Virus record (IMG/VR): IMGVR_UViG_3300047510_002037
Location: 1 to 64,000 of that record
DNA from: a virus
Length of the DNA: 64,000 nt
Reading direction: 5' to 3' (one strand)
The notes under the pieces are model-generated. The model made no database searches and was not told the DNA's origin. It was given only the letters and a program-made list of their open reading frames with translations. Positions 3,466 through 61,100 of the stretch are shown piece by piece (within the stretch, counting starts at the first letter, position 1; each line of letters opens with the position of its first letter). The translations under genes and the position numbers were made by a program.

Positions 3466-3960
3466 TCAATAACGAAGTTTTGAGTGTACAGCGTCTTTAA
3501 TGGAATTATAGTCGCTATAATTACTTCCGTCAAGTGAGTTGTCATCAAAAACTTGATCAAATCCTGTTCTTTCTAAGATTTTATTTTTGATCTCTAACTG
3601 CTTTTTCTCTTTCTGAATACGACGAAGGAAAGCATAGTGAATAATTTGAGTAAAGTAAGCAAAGGGATTTTGTGACTTCTCTGGATTGAAGTTATGAATA
3701 TATTGAACGCAGTTCTCAATTCCATCGGAAATCATGTCTTCCTTGAACATATAGTTCACAAAGTTTGGTTTGAAGGAAAGGTGATTAGCAATCTTCAGGA
3801 AACACTCTCCAATGTAGCGAGGAATAGGAGGTTTTGGTTTATCCTGGGCAAGTGCTAGATCGACACTCTCTCTATAGGAAATTAAAGCAGCTAGAAATTC
3901 CTTGTTGTTGACGTAATGTTCAGACCTCTTTCTTTTGGTCATATTTGTAGTGATAATCAT
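3466..3960 (-). CDS. 55: gp55 late-transcription sigma factor
   Basis: The 164-residue protein matches the short phage-type sigma factor that directs host RNA polymerase to late promoters with the TATAAATA -10 element; T4 gp55 has 185 residues. Recognisable is the region-2-like core with GIENCVQYIHNFNPEKSQNP and FAYFTQIIHYAFLRRIQKEK, where T4-type gp55 contacts the core enzyme and melts the -10. It is the first gene after a sigma70-type promoter and is followed without gap by gp47. It would read the many ATAAATA boxes before structural genes in this window. Confidence 0.93.
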   Translation of the reverse strand: MIITTNMTKRKRSEHYVNNKEFLAALISYRESVDLALAQDKPKPPIPRYIGECFLKIANHLSFKPNFVNYMFKEDMISDGIENCVQYIHNFNPEKSQNPFAYFTQIIHYAFLRRIQKEKKQLEIKNKILERTGFDQVFDDNSLDGSNYSDYNSIKDAVHSKLRY

Positions 3961-3984
3961 TTTGTATCTACCTTATATGTAGAT

Positions 3985-4013
3985 ATTATAACATTTCTCC
4001 TCAGAGTTGACAA
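3985..4013 (-). promoter_or_regulatory. sigma70-type promoter for gp55-gp47-gp46 operon
   Basis: On the minus strand TTGTCA (4013-4008) and a perfect TATAAT (3990-3985) are separated by exactly 17 nt, 25 nt before the gp55 start. The -35 lies in a near-palindrome AGTTGTCAACT (4005-4015), a possible operator. A 6-bp inverted repeat ATCTAC/GTAGAT (3966-3984) falls at the expected transcript start. The surrounding 107-nt gap (3961-4067) holds no other gene. Host polymerase could thus make the late sigma factor before late transcription begins. Confidence 0.8.
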
Positions 4014-4067
4014 CTTTAAAAATAATAACTATAATACCTTTGTTGGGTTTGAAGAAAAATAATAGCT

Positions 4068-4457
4068 TTAATTATTCTTAAATATCTTTTCTAATATTTC
4101 TTTAGCATCAGATATATTAGCTACGTATCCCATTTCTTTAGATATTTTATTCTTTCTGCTAGAAAATTTATCGTTATCTCTTACATAAGACTGATAGATT
4201 GATATTATTTGAATGTCTGATGATTCTGAGATTGTAATAACGTCAGACATTTTTATGATAAACATATCATCGGATGCTGTTTTTAGCCACGGTTCTACTT
4301 TATAACCAGATAACGAGCTTCTTATTACAATAGGAGATAATACTACTGGGTTTGTAATAAGAAGAAACGTTTCGTGATTTTCTTCCGAAACAGAAACTTT
4401 TGCAAATATTTCTTCTCCGGTTTTTAATTTAATAGTAGCATAAAAATCTTCTTCCAT
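4068..4457 (-). CDS. Conserved-type hypothetical protein downstream of uvsW
   Basis: A 129-residue protein I do not recognise beyond its position, which is shared with marine T4-like phages. The first half (TIKLKTGEEIFAKVSV, then a run of beta-strand-like hydrophobics) looks like a small beta-barrel of Sm or SH3 type, which would suit nucleic-acid or protein binding. The second half (MSDVITISES, DAKEILEKIFKN) looks helical. Its ATG shares one base with the uvsW stop (TAATG), implying coupled translation. The fold guess is inference. Confidence 0.75.
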   Translation of the reverse strand: MEEDFYATIKLKTGEEIFAKVSVSEENHETFLLITNPVVLSPIVIRSSLSGYKVEPWLKTASDDMFIIKMSDVITISESSDIQIISIYQSYVRDNDKFSSRKNKISKEMGYVANISDAKEILEKIFKNN

Positions 4458-5929
4458 TAGTTTTTAAAATTTAAAGTGATTATTTCATAATTAAATTTTT
4501 CTTCGTTATAAATTTTAATTCTTTCTATTAGATGATTTAACGTATAATTTTTTCTAGAGTTCACTGTGCAATCGTCAGATATATCATAAAGCATTGCCTT
4601 TGTTTTATTTTTTCCTTTTCTAAGGACTCTTCCTATTGATTGTAGATTTCTTATTCTGGATTTGCTGGGAGAAGCAAAGATAACATTATGCAAATTTCGA
4701 ATGTTAATTCCGGTAGAAAACGTTCCGTAAGATGCAACAATAATTGCGTTATTCTCTCTTTCAGTAATTTCTCTAACCAATTCTCTCTCTTCAGCATCAA
4801 CTCCACCATGTACAAAAAATACCTTACGGTCATCTTTCTTATTCTTATTTATCAAATTAAATAATGGTTCTCCATGAGTAGAAACTCTACTATACAAAAC
4901 TAATGTATTTCCCTTTAAATCTAAAGTTAAATTTTTAATAAAATTGTTTCTTTTATCATGAGAGATTAAATATTGAATCTCATCTTCATAAGTTTCAAAC
5001 TTTTGCGGATTATGCTTTAGAACCAAACATTGAATATCTAATTTAGATAGATGTCCCTGCTCCATCAATTCTGCGGTTCTAGTTACTTTATATGATGGTC
5101 CAAATAAACCCTCAAGAACCCATTTATGAGTTTGTGTTCCATCCAATGTTCCAGTAAATCCAAATCTATATTTTGCATGATGAGATTTGCTCATTATTGA
5201 TATAAGAGATTTGCTCTTGAACAAATGAGCTTCATCGCCTATAATTACATTGTATTTTTCGAAGAATGATCTTTCTAATTTGTAGATAGATTGCCAAGTA
5301 GAAACTGTAACAGGAAGATCACTATACTTCTCTCTACCCGAATATATTTGATGACAATATGAATCTGCGTCCCACCCGTAATCACGAAAATCCCCGACTA
5401 TCTGAGATACAAGAGATGTCGTTGGAACAACTAAAAGAATTTTTTGACCTTTATCCACATAATACCGCACGAGGGCGTAGATCATCAGACTTTTTCCTGA
5501 CGCAGTTGGACTTATCAATAACTTTCGATTGTGCCGTAAAGCATCATATACTCCCTCTATTTGATACTGTCTTGGGGAATGAGAACAAATAGAATTCATA
5601 TAGTCCTTCACTCCTTCAAATGAAATAGTTTCATTTACTTCATATGGAAGACCATAGAACTTATTATCTTTAAATTGATACTTATACCCGTAATTATCAC
5701 AAAAACTTATAACTTTATCTAATAAACCAACGTAAATTTGTTTTGATCTCATATCGAATAAATGGATCTCTCCATTCCAATTTCTTCCTCTATATTGAGG
5801 CATGAATTTTGCATTGGGTACTTCAAACTTAAAATAGTCTCTTAGTTCATATTCGATATGAGGTTCAGTTGTAATTTTTAGGAAAACCTCATTGGACTTT
5901 TCTATAATCAGATTTGCACTATCAACCAT
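4457..5929 (-). CDS. uvsW: UvsW recombination helicase
   Basis: Superfamily 2 DNA/RNA helicase that in T4 unwinds R-loops, drives branch migration and shifts replication from origin to recombination mode. 490 residues against 503 in T4. An N-terminal DNA-binding domain occupies about residues 1-110. Then come the Q-like RQYQIEGV, Walker A SPTASGKS (140-147), DEAH box (232-235), the FTGTLDG motif III region, and motif VI QSIGRVLRKGKNK near residue 450. It overlaps the uvsY stop by 8 nt and precedes a small hypothetical with a 1-nt overlap. Confidence 0.96.
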   Translation of the reverse strand: MVDSANLIIEKSNEVFLKITTEPHIEYELRDYFKFEVPNAKFMPQYRGRNWNGEIHLFDMRSKQIYVGLLDKVISFCDNYGYKYQFKDNKFYGLPYEVNETISFEGVKDYMNSICSHSPRQYQIEGVYDALRHNRKLLISPTASGKSLMIYALVRYYVDKGQKILLVVPTTSLVSQIVGDFRDYGWDADSYCHQIYSGREKYSDLPVTVSTWQSIYKLERSFFEKYNVIIGDEAHLFKSKSLISIMSKSHHAKYRFGFTGTLDGTQTHKWVLEGLFGPSYKVTRTAELMEQGHLSKLDIQCLVLKHNPQKFETYEDEIQYLISHDKRNNFIKNLTLDLKGNTLVLYSRVSTHGEPLFNLINKNKKDDRKVFFVHGGVDAEERELVREITERENNAIIVASYGTFSTGINIRNLHNVIFASPSKSRIRNLQSIGRVLRKGKNKTKAMLYDISDDCTVNSRKNYTLNHLIERIKIYNEEKFNYEIITLNFKN

Positions 5930-6950: not shown

Positions 6951-6976
6951 AAAAAAAGAGGGCCCGAAGACCCTCT
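6951..6976 (-). terminator. Intrinsic terminator after the 89-residue gene
   Basis: Minus-strand stem AGAGGGTC / GGCCCTCT (57-64 with 69-76 of the 6900s), loop TTCG, followed by seven T residues. One pair is G-U, which forms only in minus-strand RNA and so supports that orientation. It is nearly the same sequence as the terminator at 7307-7334. Confidence 0.9.
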
Positions 6977-6979
6977 TGT

Positions 6980-7249
6980 TTATTTTACTCGCTCACAGTA
7001 ATAACCATACTGTTTAGTTTCTTCACAAAATACCCGTTCAGATTTCCACTTAATTCCTTTTTGAGAAAGACCTTTTGGAAATCCTGGACGACCTTTATCA
7101 TTATCAAGATCTTCTTTTGATACTGCTTTAAAAAACCAACCACCAACTGGAGTACTATACCAGGGATAGTTTGCAGATTTACCTTTTCTGTTTGAAAGAG
7201 ATTTGAATTTATAATTATGTACTGGACCGCCAGTAATTATAGAAGACAT
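6980..7249 (-). CDS. Unknown 89-residue protein in a self-contained cassette
   Basis: I do not recognise a family. The protein is basic and aromatic-rich, with GKSANYPWYSTPVGGWFFKA in the first half and a C-terminus holding two cysteines (VFCEE, YYCERVK). No signal peptide, membrane segment or catalytic motif is visible. Its transcription looks separate from its neighbours: a near-consensus sigma70 promoter (7275-7303) starts it 18 nt or so before the ATG, one terminator lies before that promoter and a near copy lies just after the stop. This is moron-like architecture between the late capsid gene gp23 and gp3, suggesting early expression and perhaps a host-directed role; both are inference. 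Confidence 0.8.
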   Translation of the reverse strand: MSSIITGGPVHNYKFKSLSNRKGKSANYPWYSTPVGGWFFKAVSKEDLDNDKGRPGFPKGLSQKGIKWKSERVFCEETKQYGYYCERVK

Positions 7250-7306: not shown

Positions 7307-7334
7307 AATAAAAAAGAGGGTCCGAAGACCCTCT
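7307..7334 (-). terminator. Intrinsic terminator after gp23
   Basis: Perfect 8-bp stem AGAGGGTC / GACCCTCT with TTCG tetraloop on the minus strand, followed by a T-rich tail (5 T, A, TT). It lies 24 nt after the gp23 stop and would end the heavily transcribed capsid message. Confidence 0.95.
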
Positions 7335-47067: not shown

Positions 47068-50000
47068 TATTTAAATTAATACTAAACAATCTATTTAGTG
47101 CATTGTCGATGGGTTGAATGTTACTCTTGAGGTTGATATCACTCATACCCATTCCACCAGAAGGTGCGGGCGATGGACGTGGTGATGGACGTGGTGATGG
47201 ACGTGGCGCTGGCGCAGGCGCTGGACGTGGTGATGGACGTGGCGCTGGCGCAGGCGCTGGACGTGGTGATGGACGTGGCGCTGGTGCTGGTTGTGGTCTT
47301 GGTGATGGACGTGGTGCTGGTGGTGGGGATGGTCTTGGTGATGGTCTTGGTTCTGGTCTTGGTTGAGGTCTTGGTTGGACAACTGGGAATCCTCTTTGTT
47401 CAAACTTAACTTCACCTCTATCAGTAACTCTCTTAGCAGCTTTTGGTGTTTGTGTAATTACAAGAGAATTTTCCTTTTTACCTGAAATTTTTCCATCGTC
47501 ATTAACGTCAAATTTATCAAATTTAGGTGTTCCTGGTTTTAAAGTCTTGAGAACCTTTCCACCTGGAACTGATGAATCTTTAATTCTAAGATTACCATTT
47601 TTATCTTGAACTGTTACAACATTTGAAGTTTTCTTATCTCCACCAGTTGGTTTTGCTGGTTTGCCCCTTCCAGGAGCATTTTTTGGTGGAATTGGAACTC
47701 CTGCATCTTTGTATGCCTCTCTTGCTGCCGCTGCACCTTCTCTCTTTTTAATTTGTCTAAAATTATATTCTCTCGTTTTACCATTCTTGGTTGTAAATGG
47801 AACATAAGTAACTGCAGTAACTCCTCCTCTACTTCTTGTAACGTTCTTAACTTTAAATGTCTTTGGAGTTTCTTGTACAGGAGTTTTGTTGTGAGAGAGT
47901 AAACCTTCACAAATATAAGTGTGTGCATCATCAACTGTAATCTTAACTACATCACCATCATCAACTTGTTCAATTTCTAATAGTTTTTGTTCAGAAACTA
48001 CATCTCCAATTTGCATGTTTTTGCATTCTTTCCACAATCCATCAACATAGAATTTGTGAGAATCTGAGCAAATAATTTCACTAGTTTCAAACTTCAACTT
48101 AAATTTGGTAACATTATTCACTATTTCAACATAAGTAACCTGATAATCACCATATTCAAAAGTATTTTCATGGTAAGTTTTTACAAAATCACCAATTTGA
48201 AGTTCTCCTGCCTTCTTCTGTGTGCCGTCAGCAAGTAGAATTAGGCAATTTGGATCTGGACATGGCGGTGGTGGATCTCTCTTTGGATCATTAGGACTCA
48301 CTGGAGTTGCGGTTGACCCGCGAGGTGTCGGATCCGATGGTGATGGTTCTCTAGTTGGATAAACTGCAGGTGGTGGTGCAGGTTCTGGATCATTAATAAT
48401 AGTATTAATAATTTCATCAATTTCATCAGGATCAACTTCACCACCATCATAAGGAGCTGGTATAAAAATTGGAACGACTTGAGGAGGTGGTGGTTTTATG
48501 TTTCCAACAACTGTACTTGCTACAACCTCTGGTGGTCCAACAGAAACATCAGTTCTAGTATCAACAATTGTTGCGGTTTCAGTCTGTACATTTCTAACAG
48601 ACAAAACACTTTCTTGAACTACTTTTACTGTTCCTTCAGCATAGAATTTTTCTTCTGCACCAGTTACTGGAACTCCAATAACAGTAACATTTTTCTCTTG
48701 ACTAGTTATTCTAAAAAGTTTTGTTCCAGTTTCGAAAGTTGGATTAGATGGTACGTTTGGATTTGGAATAAAGAATGAACCAATAAGAGTACCGTTTCTA
48801 TCAGTAACCATTCTAATTCTAGAAACAGTAGCTACCGCTTTACTAGTTTCTCCTACTAAAGTCATTCCAACAGTAACATATCCATAATAATCACCTTGAG
48901 TTTTATTTGATAAACTGAATGTATCTACGTTTAATATTGTTGAAGATGAAGAATATGTATCAGGAACCAGTGTAGATGTATTATATGGATTTGTTATAAA
49001 AATATCTTCCGGGACATTATATGGACCATATTTGTGTGCAGCTGCTGCAACTCTAAATCTAATAAATTTATCTTCAAGCGGAGTAATACCATTTCCACTT
49101 TGAATTGGTGATGTGTTTAATGTCTTAACATTTTCTCCAACTTGGAACACTCCACTAACCATTTGAATTTCTAATAACTTTGGTACAATGTAACGATTAA
49201 CATCTACCTTATCAAAAAATGCATATACTTCAGTAAGTGGTTTTAATCTCTTAGCAGTAAATTCTATATTTCTTGATCTCATTGCTGGGATAAGATCTGA
49301 ACTTACAGTCACTTCTCCTACTTTGATACTTTCAAAGCTCTCTCTTTCTTTATATGCAACTCCAGTTTTTGTTGAAGTTCCGGTCTTTTGTGTTACTGCT
49401 AAATCTTCTCTGATTAAATCATAACCATTAACTACTGTTCTTGAACCAGCTGGAATTTTTGTGGATCCAGTCCATACAGTCTCCCATGCTCCCCAAGTCA
49501 CGGGACCAAATCCAGTTTGTTGATTGAATTGTGACGCTGTTAGCTGAGACTGAGTTTTTGTATATTTTCCTTGAACATCAATTACTCTAGGAGTTAATTT
49601 AACTTGATCTGCCCAAACATCAGAAGATGGAACTAATTGTATACTTCCCGCATAATACGCATTTCTAAATGATGTTACTGGAGCAACTCTACTTGCATAT
49701 CCTTGAGTTATATAAGCAACTTCTTCATACTGCAAAGTTACTAATTGTCCAGTTCTCTTAACACCTCTACCAATTAGATTTTGATCAAAACGTAAATCTG
49801 AAGTTTGTGCTGGAGAAGTGCTAATTCCTAGTGTATTTTCAGTACCAAGAACTAAATCTATCTGGGTAGTGAATGGTGCTGGTCTTAACTCTCCAAGTTT
49901 TGTATCTATACTATTTTTTACATCAGTCACTTTTAATTGTGGTTCAGCTGATGAAAAGTCATCAACAAAGAAACCAGACTTAAAGCGATTTAATCCATTT

Positions 50001-58100: not shown

Positions 58101-61100
58101 ATAATTTCTTGAATATGGTTCTTCTGTCCCATCAACTATTCCAGATCTCATAAATGTTCTTCCGCTAAAAGTGGAATTTGTTGTAATTCCTGTCCAATCT
58201 CTAGAGTCTGGTCTATTTTCAGGAGATCCTAATGGATACTTACCATAAGGAGCCGATGCAAAGTTAATTACATTATCTACAATATTATAGTTTCCGACAA
58301 CTTTTATTATTAAATCACCGGCAGAATGATTTTGTAATGATGTTCCAAGCCATGGTCTATTAACGTATATTTGAGTGGAAGTTGTTCCATATCCAACTAT
58401 AGCAACTCTCATTAACTCATCATTTATTTTTATGAAATCGCCAGATTTGAAAAATTCTACGTTATTTGATACGTTAATAATATCATCTGTAGTAAGAATA
58501 TTGTACGCAAGGGTTGTTGTTGTTGCAGTAGATACAATTGGAGATTGTATCATATTGTCAATAGAGATTAATGCCTTTGCATTTTGCTTTTCGGCAGTAA
58601 TATAATGCTCAGAACCAAAACCAACAGAAGTTATTGTTAAAACTTCCGGTACTAACTTTAATGCATTTTGAGCAGAGGATGCAAATTTAACATTAAGATC
58701 AGTTTCTTTTACAATATAAAGATCTTCTGGTAATTTATCAGTCAATCCAATACCAGAAATAGTAGTAGTTGCTATTCCTATGGGCTCATTAAAGATCTCA
58801 TATGAATATTTTACTTTTTCTCCAGTAACAAAGAAATGTTGTGGAAGTTGTACTAAATTATTTGCAACGTCAATTATGTCTGAAGATTCTCCATTAAATT
58901 TCTTTTGGAATATTGGATTCCCTTTGTGGAATAACTCAAAAGATTTTCTAATTGCACTCTCAGTTCCTTCATATTCGCCATATCCAGTAGATACTCGTGC
59001 ATTATTCAAATCTATCTCATTATTCAAGTTAAATGTATCAACTATTCCTATAGTGTTTACATATACCCTAACCTCACAGTCTATTTCAGAATCTGCAGTG
59101 AAATAAATTTCTGTTGTAGATCCATTTAGAAAAGAAGTAATAATACCAATTTCACCATTAGTGGTTAATACTCCAAATTCAGAGTTATATGCTGAATTAT
59201 CATCAGATGCAACTACACATTCTGAAATTTGATATCTTTCATTAGTTAAGTCTTCAATACTTACAATTAAATATGCTCCATTATAATCATAGAATCCAGC
59301 ATCAAACTCCGCAATCTTAGTTGGTGAAGTGCTAGAAGTTGTAGATATACCAACATATTCGGAATTTAACTGAGAGGTGTTTAATGTTATTGATCCCTCT
59401 TCAATAAATCCTGATGCAGAGCTTGCTATAGACACTTGTAACGTGTTTACATCAGCATCTAACAATATATTTGGTATCAAATCGACTACTAAGTTTCCTG
59501 AACTTATATAAGCATTATATGTCCCAATACCCGAAACAGATTCTTCTGAGAATGATTCGGTTGTAATTTGACCATAATCTATAATCTCAACATTAGTTCC
59601 ATCATGAATAACAGTAATTTCGTCGAATTCAAATATATTTGACGAATCTTCAATCTGAACTAGAATTTTAGTTGCTCTGTAATCTAGAGGTATTGATGCT
59701 ATTGTTGTGGTTATACCTGCATTTAATGGAGTAAAAGTACTATTAACCTTAACAATATTACCAATCGAGGTGTTTCCTACTCCAGAAATGTAATCTTTAA
59801 CGTCATAACTTACAAAACTAAGATCATAATTATTAACTCTAAACTTGACTGGATAGAAAAGTAATCTAGCTTCATCGCCAAAAATATCAAAATCGAAAGA
59901 TCCTAATATTGGACCAGTTTCAACTCTACCATATTGGTTTATGTATGTTTGACCTCCATCATGAATAAAAGTAACAAGGTATACTTGTCTTTCTGAAGTA
60001 AATCTTTTATCCCTAGCGAAAATTAAGAACTTTCTTGATCTTATCTGTTCTAGTTTAAATGTTGTTACAACACTGTATGGATTTGGTCTTGGTCTATCAT
60101 TAAAATATTCACTAACATCATCAATTACTAATACTCTATTTCCAATAGATTCCTCATAATCCTGAAGATCTCTACTATTAAATATCATTCCATTAGATAT
60201 TAATTTTGCTCCGATTGTTTCTGTTTCATCAATAGCAATATCGAAATCATATACACAATCTAAATCTACTACTTCTGATATGAAAGCAATTGATAAGAAA
60301 TCGCCACTGTCTTGAGATGTTGATATTCCTGAGAAAGATAAATCAGAGGTTTCAATTACTAAATCACTAAACTTTTTAAATCCAGATAGATGGTTTAATG
60401 AATTAACAGTAGTGTCCCAATTTTGGAGTGGAATTCTTGATTTAATTGAATATGAGAAATTCTGATAATAATCTCCATCTTGAATTTTTTGGAAAGAATT
60501 ATTTAAAAATCCAGTTTCATCTTTCCATCCAGAGACTACAACAGAGGTTGCATCAACATTATATACCAGTTCATTGGTTGCTATCTCAGTAATTTCTGCA
60601 ACTGATCCACTCTTTGATCCTACAACACGTTCTCCTAGTAAATATGAATCTATAGTAGTAACTTTCAATAATTCATTAATTTTATCCCATCTAGAAACTC
60701 TTCCTACAACCTTACTCGTCAAACCAGTTATCTCTTCACCTTCAATAAAATCATTCTGCTTTATTGTTGCTGTAAAAATTGGAAAATGCTTTTCTAAAAC
60801 AACTATTCCACTGGAAGTTACCAAATCATATTGGCCTAAAATTTCATCACTAGAAACATAGTCTTGCATACTATAAGTTATAGTTGCATTTGAACCTCCA
60901 ATATTTGGATCAATACTCAGGATCTTGAATAAATTATAGTTAAATTCTGATGAATTAAATCCTCTACCCAAACTTCCTAAAGTACTTGTTTTACATCCTT
61001 CTATCAGGATGTTATCATTTACTTGGAATGGAAAATCATTTAAAGAGCTAAAACTAGTCCTAAAAGTAACCGTTACAATTTTAGTACTAAAGTTAAAAAC

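Follow-up and report, generated by a model that had tools for sequence, protein, structure and literature searches.

The nearest known arrangement to the one reported here is that of lambda pO/OOP, in which a regulatory gene has a convergent promoter close behind its 3' end. In the available text of PMC5869508, the OOP promoter lies just 3' of cII, its RNA overlaps the C-terminal region of cII by 52 bases, and RNase III-dependent cleavage of the OOP/cII hybrid is suggested; pO also decreases pR transcription (PMC3985674, available text). Among T4-like cyanophages, S-PM2 expresses the antisense RNA CfrI (~225 nt), which the accessible parts of PMC2984593 and PMC5931967 describe as running opposite psbA and a homing endonuclease gene, at a different locus from the one studied here. 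In bacterial bidirectional promoters the -10 is shared and the starts are 7-25 bp apart (Warman/Grainger; PMC10268837, available text). T4-like cyanophages have no homologues of MotA, Asi, Alt and ModA/B according to the available portion of PMC2984593, which describes their control of early and middle transcription as unclear and notes sigma70-like motifs upstream of early-gene homologues in S-PM2 and Syn9. Sullivan et al. (2010) describe predicted sigma70 promoters in cyanophages, and their main text does not contain the word "antisense".

The locus analysed here differs from these systems in several respects. Unlike the T4-type early promoters of cyanophages, the predicted antisense promoter points against the genes. 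Compared with lambda pO/OOP, the putative target is an Sm-like gene in marine T4-like phages, a conserved terminator is missing, a covarying dyad marks the start site, a second copy is often present, and in many phages the -35 is common with that of the late sigma factor gene gp55. As in bidirectional promoters, one DNA segment would take polymerase in two exclusive orientations, but here it is the -35 that is shared; the starts predicted by the spacing rule (~4042 on the plus strand and ~3978 on the minus strand) are ~64 bp apart, and no shared -10 with starts 7-25 bp apart was found at the locus. Among the literature matches listed, none reports this antisense promoter in title or abstract; the promoter may be visible in the Syn9 transcriptome (doi 10.1038/ismej.2015.210).

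The window, i.e., the whole 64,000-nt stretch of DNA, was assigned to Kyanoviridae relatives, as a T4-like marine phage. Its minus strand holds 41 out of 41 non-overlapping ATG ORFs of at least 80 aa, and the gene order at the locus is gp46, a small gene, gp47, gp55, a 107-bp gap, the Sm-like gene, uvsW, uvsY and others (Table 1). The Sm-like protein scores 40.4 bits against PF16243, for which the curated cut-off is 29.4, and shows a weak sequence match (E 0.13) to the solved structure 3by7, which we take to be a cyanophage-type Sm-like protein. Given the PF16243 match, the public label "methylamine utilization" attached to this gene in many cyanophage records looks wrong. A search of the whole window with the Rfam curated families at gathering scores gave 0 matches.

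Table 1. Positions of genes and predicted regulatory features at the gp55/Sm-like locus of the window.
Feature	Position	Strand	Basis
gp55, late sigma factor	3466..3960	-	phrog_234, E 7e-68
Predicted gp55 promoter: -35 TTGTCA 4013-4008, 17 nt, extended -10 TATAAT 3990-3985; predicted start ~3978	3985..4013	-	sequence match, conservation
Palindrome AGTTGACAACT, coinciding -35 boxes of two divergent predicted promoters	4005..4015	both	
Predicted antisense host-type promoter: -35 TTGACA 4007-4012, 17 nt spacer, -10 TATAAT 4030-4035	4007..4035	+	12/12 match
Dyad ACCU-UUGUU-GGGU directly after the antisense -10; predicted start ~G4042 in the loop	4036..4048	+	fold, covariation
Predicted antisense RNA, through the whole Sm-like gene, possibly into uvsW	4042..4457	+	prediction; no conserved ORF or terminator
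Sm-like RNA-binding protein gene, predicted antisense target	4068..4457	-	PF16243 Sm_like, E 3.5e-10; phrog_471
uvsW helicase, next gene antisense to the promoter	4457..5929	-	phrog_16, E 2e-118

The original prediction placed a host-type promoter upstream of gp55. TTGTCA-17-TATAAT is indeed present on the minus strand, with a TG one base before the -10, and the promoter is kept in relatives: 117 out of 133 distinct intergenic regions carry TTGTCA at the common position together with a TATAAT-like -10. Overlooked at that time was a second putative promoter, on the plus strand, which runs into the Sm-like gene from its 3' side. Its TTGACA-17-TATAAT is the sole match to that consensus on either strand of the window, where 0.16 would be expected. 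The conservation set consisted of 164 loci, which hold the 133 distinct intergenic regions; they were retrieved through their resemblance to the gp55 or Sm-like protein of the window, and six phage records were added. All 133 regions contain an antisense TTGACA followed at 16-18 nt by a TANNNT -10 (best-scoring site in each, 10-12 of 12 positions). A conserved sigma70-type promoter, in the sense of TTGACA and a TATAAT-like element 16-18 nt apart, was thus found, although a match to the consensus does not prove that it would initiate transcription in vivo.

The antisense promoter was observed in 22 of 24 named records (the window included; Syn1 and S-RIM44 are identical here), the exceptions being ACG-2014f with TTGCCA and Melnitz-1 with no -10 at the right distance. 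It matches at 12 of 12 positions in Pelagibacter phages HTVC008M and Mosig and at 11 of 12 in S-RSM4, whose intergenic sequence is the same as that of S-WAM2. The strict pattern occurs in 51 of the 54 Syn9-type loci (duplicates removed) and a looser one in all 54, against 0 out of 55 in a control inside the gp55 ORF. The count is lower in pelagiphage-type loci (32 of 103; 44 duplicates were dropped from 147) because their -35 is often TTGACT; with one -35 mismatch allowed and TGT required after the -10, it rises to 77 of 103. In the gp55/Sm-like gap of Methylophilales phage Melnitz-1 (locus L304) the antisense TTGACA and TATATT are only ~6 nt apart, a 96-bp plus-strand CDS is annotated near the gap, and the antisense promoter seems to have been lost.

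Linkage to the Sm-like gene was analysed in 309 distinct Sm-like 3' regions; of 393 loci, 84 were set aside because the promoter pattern had served to retrieve them. Of the 309, 289 have the antisense module behind the 3' end of the Sm-like gene, and the number rises to 304, pelagiphages included, when the search begins 60 nt earlier; most of the 20 misses arise because the ORF reads past the true stop. By the same criterion only 2 of the 309 loci have the module inside the Sm-like ORF and 4 on the sense strand, and shuffled sequences gave a mean of 1.2. Without the TGT requirement the numbers are 307 at the site, 25 inside the Sm-like ORF, 12.6 in shuffles and 263 on the sense strand, the last of which we read as mostly the gp55 promoter. 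In the pelagiphage-type loci, searched over the last 260 nt before gp55, the module was found in 77 of 86 where an Sm-like gene ends no more than 400 nt upstream of gp55 and in 0 of 17 without an Sm-like gene in that interval. Conversely, 21 out of 22 loci in which gp55 lies 260-2000 nt away keep the antisense promoter. The distance from the antisense -10 to the Sm-like stop is 10-79 nt, and 30-39 nt in 258 of 372 loci (pattern-fetched loci included); as with OOP, the convergent promoter is just 3' of its presumed target gene. This putative promoter is thus linked to the Sm-like gene and independent of gp55. Its presence in phages of cyanobacteria and SAR11 makes it a concrete lead on early/middle control, and it would give a phage Sm-like protein its first regulatory context.

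These distances also bear on a promoter competition model, in which the antisense promoter would mainly draw polymerase from the gp55 promoter, throttling and timing the late sigma factor. We consider this rather unlikely. It would account for the coinciding -35s in the 117 regions noted above and for the Syn9-type loci, where the gp55 and antisense -35s are within ~10 bp of each other, and competition between overlapping promoters has been documented in E. coli (PMC12825309, available text). However, in 89 out of 107 pelagiphage-type loci (same-contig duplicates included) the gp55 -35 is 20-69 bp away from the antisense -35, and the loci with a distant gp55 retain the promoter all the same. 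Furthermore, the available text of the E. coli study states that basal transcription was too low for competition at 5 out of 5 promoters tested unless one side was activated. The sharing of a -35 with the gp55 promoter looks secondary.

Strong promoter matches on the reverse strand are rare in these genomes. In 11 complete cyanophage genomes, TTGACA-16/18-TANAAT has 112 forward and 14 reverse matches; the antisense site makes up 10 of the 14 and is the sole reverse match in six genomes. P-SSM4 has a TACACT variant at the antisense site and was not counted. In the two pelagiphages the counts are 3 forward and 3 reverse in one, 3 forward and 1 reverse in the other; each has one of these matches at the locus. 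Such a concentration could also be expected if the antisense transcript primed or activated DNA replication, either through an R-loop origin next to uvsW, in analogy to the R-loop at T4 origins, or through a pO-like interplay of replication and transcription. This is very unlikely in our view: the GC skew does not change at the locus, either in Syn9 (100-150 kb) or in the window, although T4-type replication need not show one. On the positive side, lambda pO affects replication (PMC3985674, available text). A second divergent pair of strong promoters ~100 bp apart was noticed in SynMITS9220M01 at 49641 (-)/49746 (+) and in S-SM2 at 58136 (-)/58240 (+).

The palindrome between the two genes had been proposed as the binding site of a repressor or of gp55 itself, acting as an operator that times gp55. 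The sequence AGTTGTCAACT lies at 4015-4005; with one mismatch allowed there are 2 matches in the window (the same site on both strands) where chance would give 1.80; taken by itself, the palindrome has no statistical significance. Its two halves are explained by the two -35 boxes, which coincide at this position with a one-base offset. The expectation that the palindrome is conserved held in part: TTGNCAA is kept in cyanophages, often as CTTGACAAG, which is what an operator would predict, but the symmetry is gone from many pelagiphage-type loci in which the antisense -35 is TTGACT. Moreover, gp55 uses a separate TTGACA in many cyanophages (for example Syn9, S-PM2 and S-CAM4), and the same antisense promoter is found without an adjacent gp55. 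A palindrome conserved independently of the promoter boxes, as would be expected of a dimeric-repressor operator, was not found in the named records, the pelagiphage-type loci or the gp55-distant loci. Since the gp55 promoter shifts position between lineages, the palindrome is better explained as one predicted -35 read both ways, a by-product of two putative promoters that overlap in some lineages. An operator function is thus highly improbable. The predicted antisense promoter, and not the palindrome, is the conserved object. In short, the gp55 promoter stands and the operator idea falls; the more important result is the conserved antisense promoter, which has a start-site dyad and is attached to the Sm-like gene.

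The start-site dyad directly follows the antisense -10, and the start at ~G4042 is predicted from the -10 spacing. A fold of the plus strand shows the 4-bp stem of the dyad; the whole 65-nt stretch folds no better than shuffles. The arms vary between phages and stay complementary (AACCT/AGGTT, AACTC/GAGTT, AAACC/GGTTT, AACGG/CCGTT, AGACT/AGTCT and CAGCG/CGCTG), and the loop of full stems ranges from 3 to 7 nt. At least 4 Watson-Crick pairs in 5-bp arms occur in 37 of 57 pelagiphage-type sequences vs 13.1 when the tails are exchanged between loci, and in 70 of 91 cyanophage-type sequences vs 57.8 (distinct sequences). In either group, 0 out of 200 tail exchanges matched the observed mean. The evidence for covariation in this putative element is strong, although the sequences are related and so not independent. 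YTGT follows the antisense -10 in 128 of 133 cyanophage sequences, a set selected without regard to it, and TGT falls in the dyad loop or closing pair of 23 out of 23 full stems, in the pelagiphage- and Syn9-type partly by construction since TGT was required there.

The dyad is not simply a 5' hairpin of the antisense RNA, because its 5' arm is upstream of the expected start. The wobble counts lean to the antisense strand, and a composition control explains most of this. The varying loop length speaks for a hairpin, and the agreement of copies within a genome for a factor that may read the sequence. If a regulator binds at this locus, the dyad at the antisense start would be a better candidate site than the palindrome. 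We also considered the dyad as a general trait of strong promoters, which was rejected: the fetched loci contain 65 promoters, 57 of which a regex placed outside the module class, and 1 of the 57 had a stem plus TGT, this lone case being the second copy of P-SSM4. One fixed dyad motif gave 4 matches in ten records, 3 of them in metagenome contigs; the low number is due to the difference of the dyad between genomes.

In 7 of 10 scanned genomes the gene-sense strand carries a clear further copy of the promoter with its dyad, picked by eye from several candidates in each: S-SSM5, S-PM2, S-CREM1, P-SSM4, Bellamy, S-SM2 and SynMITS9220M01. The ten-genome scan gave no convincing second copy in P-SSM2, P-TIM68 and Syn9, and a narrower scan gave none in HTVC008M and Mosig. 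In S-SSM5, 20 out of 20 nt after the -10 are identical between the second copy and the antisense copy. The second copies tend to resemble the antisense copy of their own genome: 4 out of 5040 pairings score as well, and the own copy is best or tied in 5 of 7, a test that leans in favour of this result since the copies were chosen by eye and some genomes are close kin. The genes behind the second copies are short and not the same in all phages. A phrog_1653 gene is found there in Bellamy, S-SM2, SynMITS9220M01 and several metagenome contigs, and other small ORFs elsewhere.

The identity in S-SSM5, and the similarity also seen in S-PM2 and P-SSM4, could be explained by a shared leader: the antisense RNA would have the same 5' leader as the early mRNA from the second copy and titrate an RNA-binding factor, possibly the Sm-like protein. 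A Shine-Dalgarno-like GAGG in the leader of Bellamy, S-SM2 and SynMITS9220M01 is consistent with such a decoy. We nevertheless regard it as unlikely, given that the second copies drive different genes in different phages and that the three cyanophages named above have no convincing one. A two-site circuit in Kyanoviridae is a tentative possibility, in which a phage-encoded regulator, or the Sm-like protein acting on the leaders, would read a genome-specific dyad straddling the starts of both promoters: the antisense one, which would silence Sm-like/uvsW mRNA, and the one in front of a small early gene. If true, early takeover would thereby be tied to the change to recombination and late transcription.

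The genes of the phrog_1653 family itself (64-72 aa, of unknown function) start directly behind the second promoter and its dyad, whose 3' arm contains GAGG, at metagenome loci L239:3541-3789, L550, L551 and L553-L555 and at Bellamy 56712, S-SM2 43249 and SynMITS9220M01 36828. The other second copies precede unrelated small genes at S-PM2 162737, S-SSM5 49468, S-CREM1 8328 and P-SSM4 51125; that of S-CREM1 has by eye a GIY-YIG-type endonuclease look, which we take as a presumptive assignment.

As to the product of the antisense promoter, a small plus-strand protein was considered and rejected: in 153 of 158 loci no ATG ORF of at least 10 aa starts in the first 60 nt, and with GTG/TTG starts an ORF of at least 50 aa is present in only 2 of 158. 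A short terminated sRNA was also rejected, since 12 of 158 loci have a terminator-like site in the first 400 nt and its position differs among them; the antisense RNA is for this reason not filed as a member of the OOP class. Synonymous variability is slightly low throughout the Sm-like gene (0.74 vs 0.81 in uvsW and 0.88 in gp55) with no special constraint at the 3' end, which disfavours a conserved RNA body inside the ORF. Antisense pairing does not need extra synonymous constraint.

With moderate confidence, we favour a model in which the host sigma70-type promoter downstream of the Sm-like gene fires against it, and noncoding antisense RNA or collision lowers Sm-like/uvsW expression. What the DNA itself shows is the promoter and how widely it is kept, its attachment to the Sm-like gene, the dyad and the additional copies; from these we infer activity, timing, the effect on the target and an acting factor. 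Host RNA polymerase would start at ~4042 (+) early in infection and make a noncoding RNA antisense to the Sm-like gene and perhaps to uvsW. Through RNA pairing or head-on collision, this would keep Sm-like/uvsW expression down until the late promoters take over. In many cyanophages, the window included, the -35 is common to the gp55 promoter and polymerase would have to pick one direction. The dyad at the start probably tunes the antisense promoter, perhaps via a factor that also acts on the second promoter of the same genome. The start sites are predicted to the base in phages with studied infection transcriptomes; for the antisense RNA they would lie at ~123,698 (-) in Syn9 (NC_008296.2) and at ~84,439 (-) in S-PM2 (AJ630128.1).

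Two further parts of the original prediction concern transcription of gp55 and the late genes. A stem was proposed at the gp55 transcript start; it is present in the window (7 bp at 3950-3985 on the minus strand, z -2.7) but it is not conserved, as a Watson-Crick stem of at least 6 bp was found at 7 of 159 loci, and it is missing in most relatives. The statement that all structural genes use ATAAATA was too strong: ATAAATA stands in the 80 nt upstream of 14 out of 41 ORFs, and an exact copy is missing from this interval in front of the major capsid gene. The window has 23 copies of ATAAATA, all of them on the gene-sense strand. The T4 late promoter element TATAAATA was not found at the -10 of the gp55 or the antisense promoter, neither of which has ATAAATA. 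Elsewhere in the window, strong hairpin terminators with TTCG-like loops at 6956-6977 and 7315-7334 flank a small gene (6980-7249), which has its own promoter, TTGACT-17-TATAAT, at 7303-7275.
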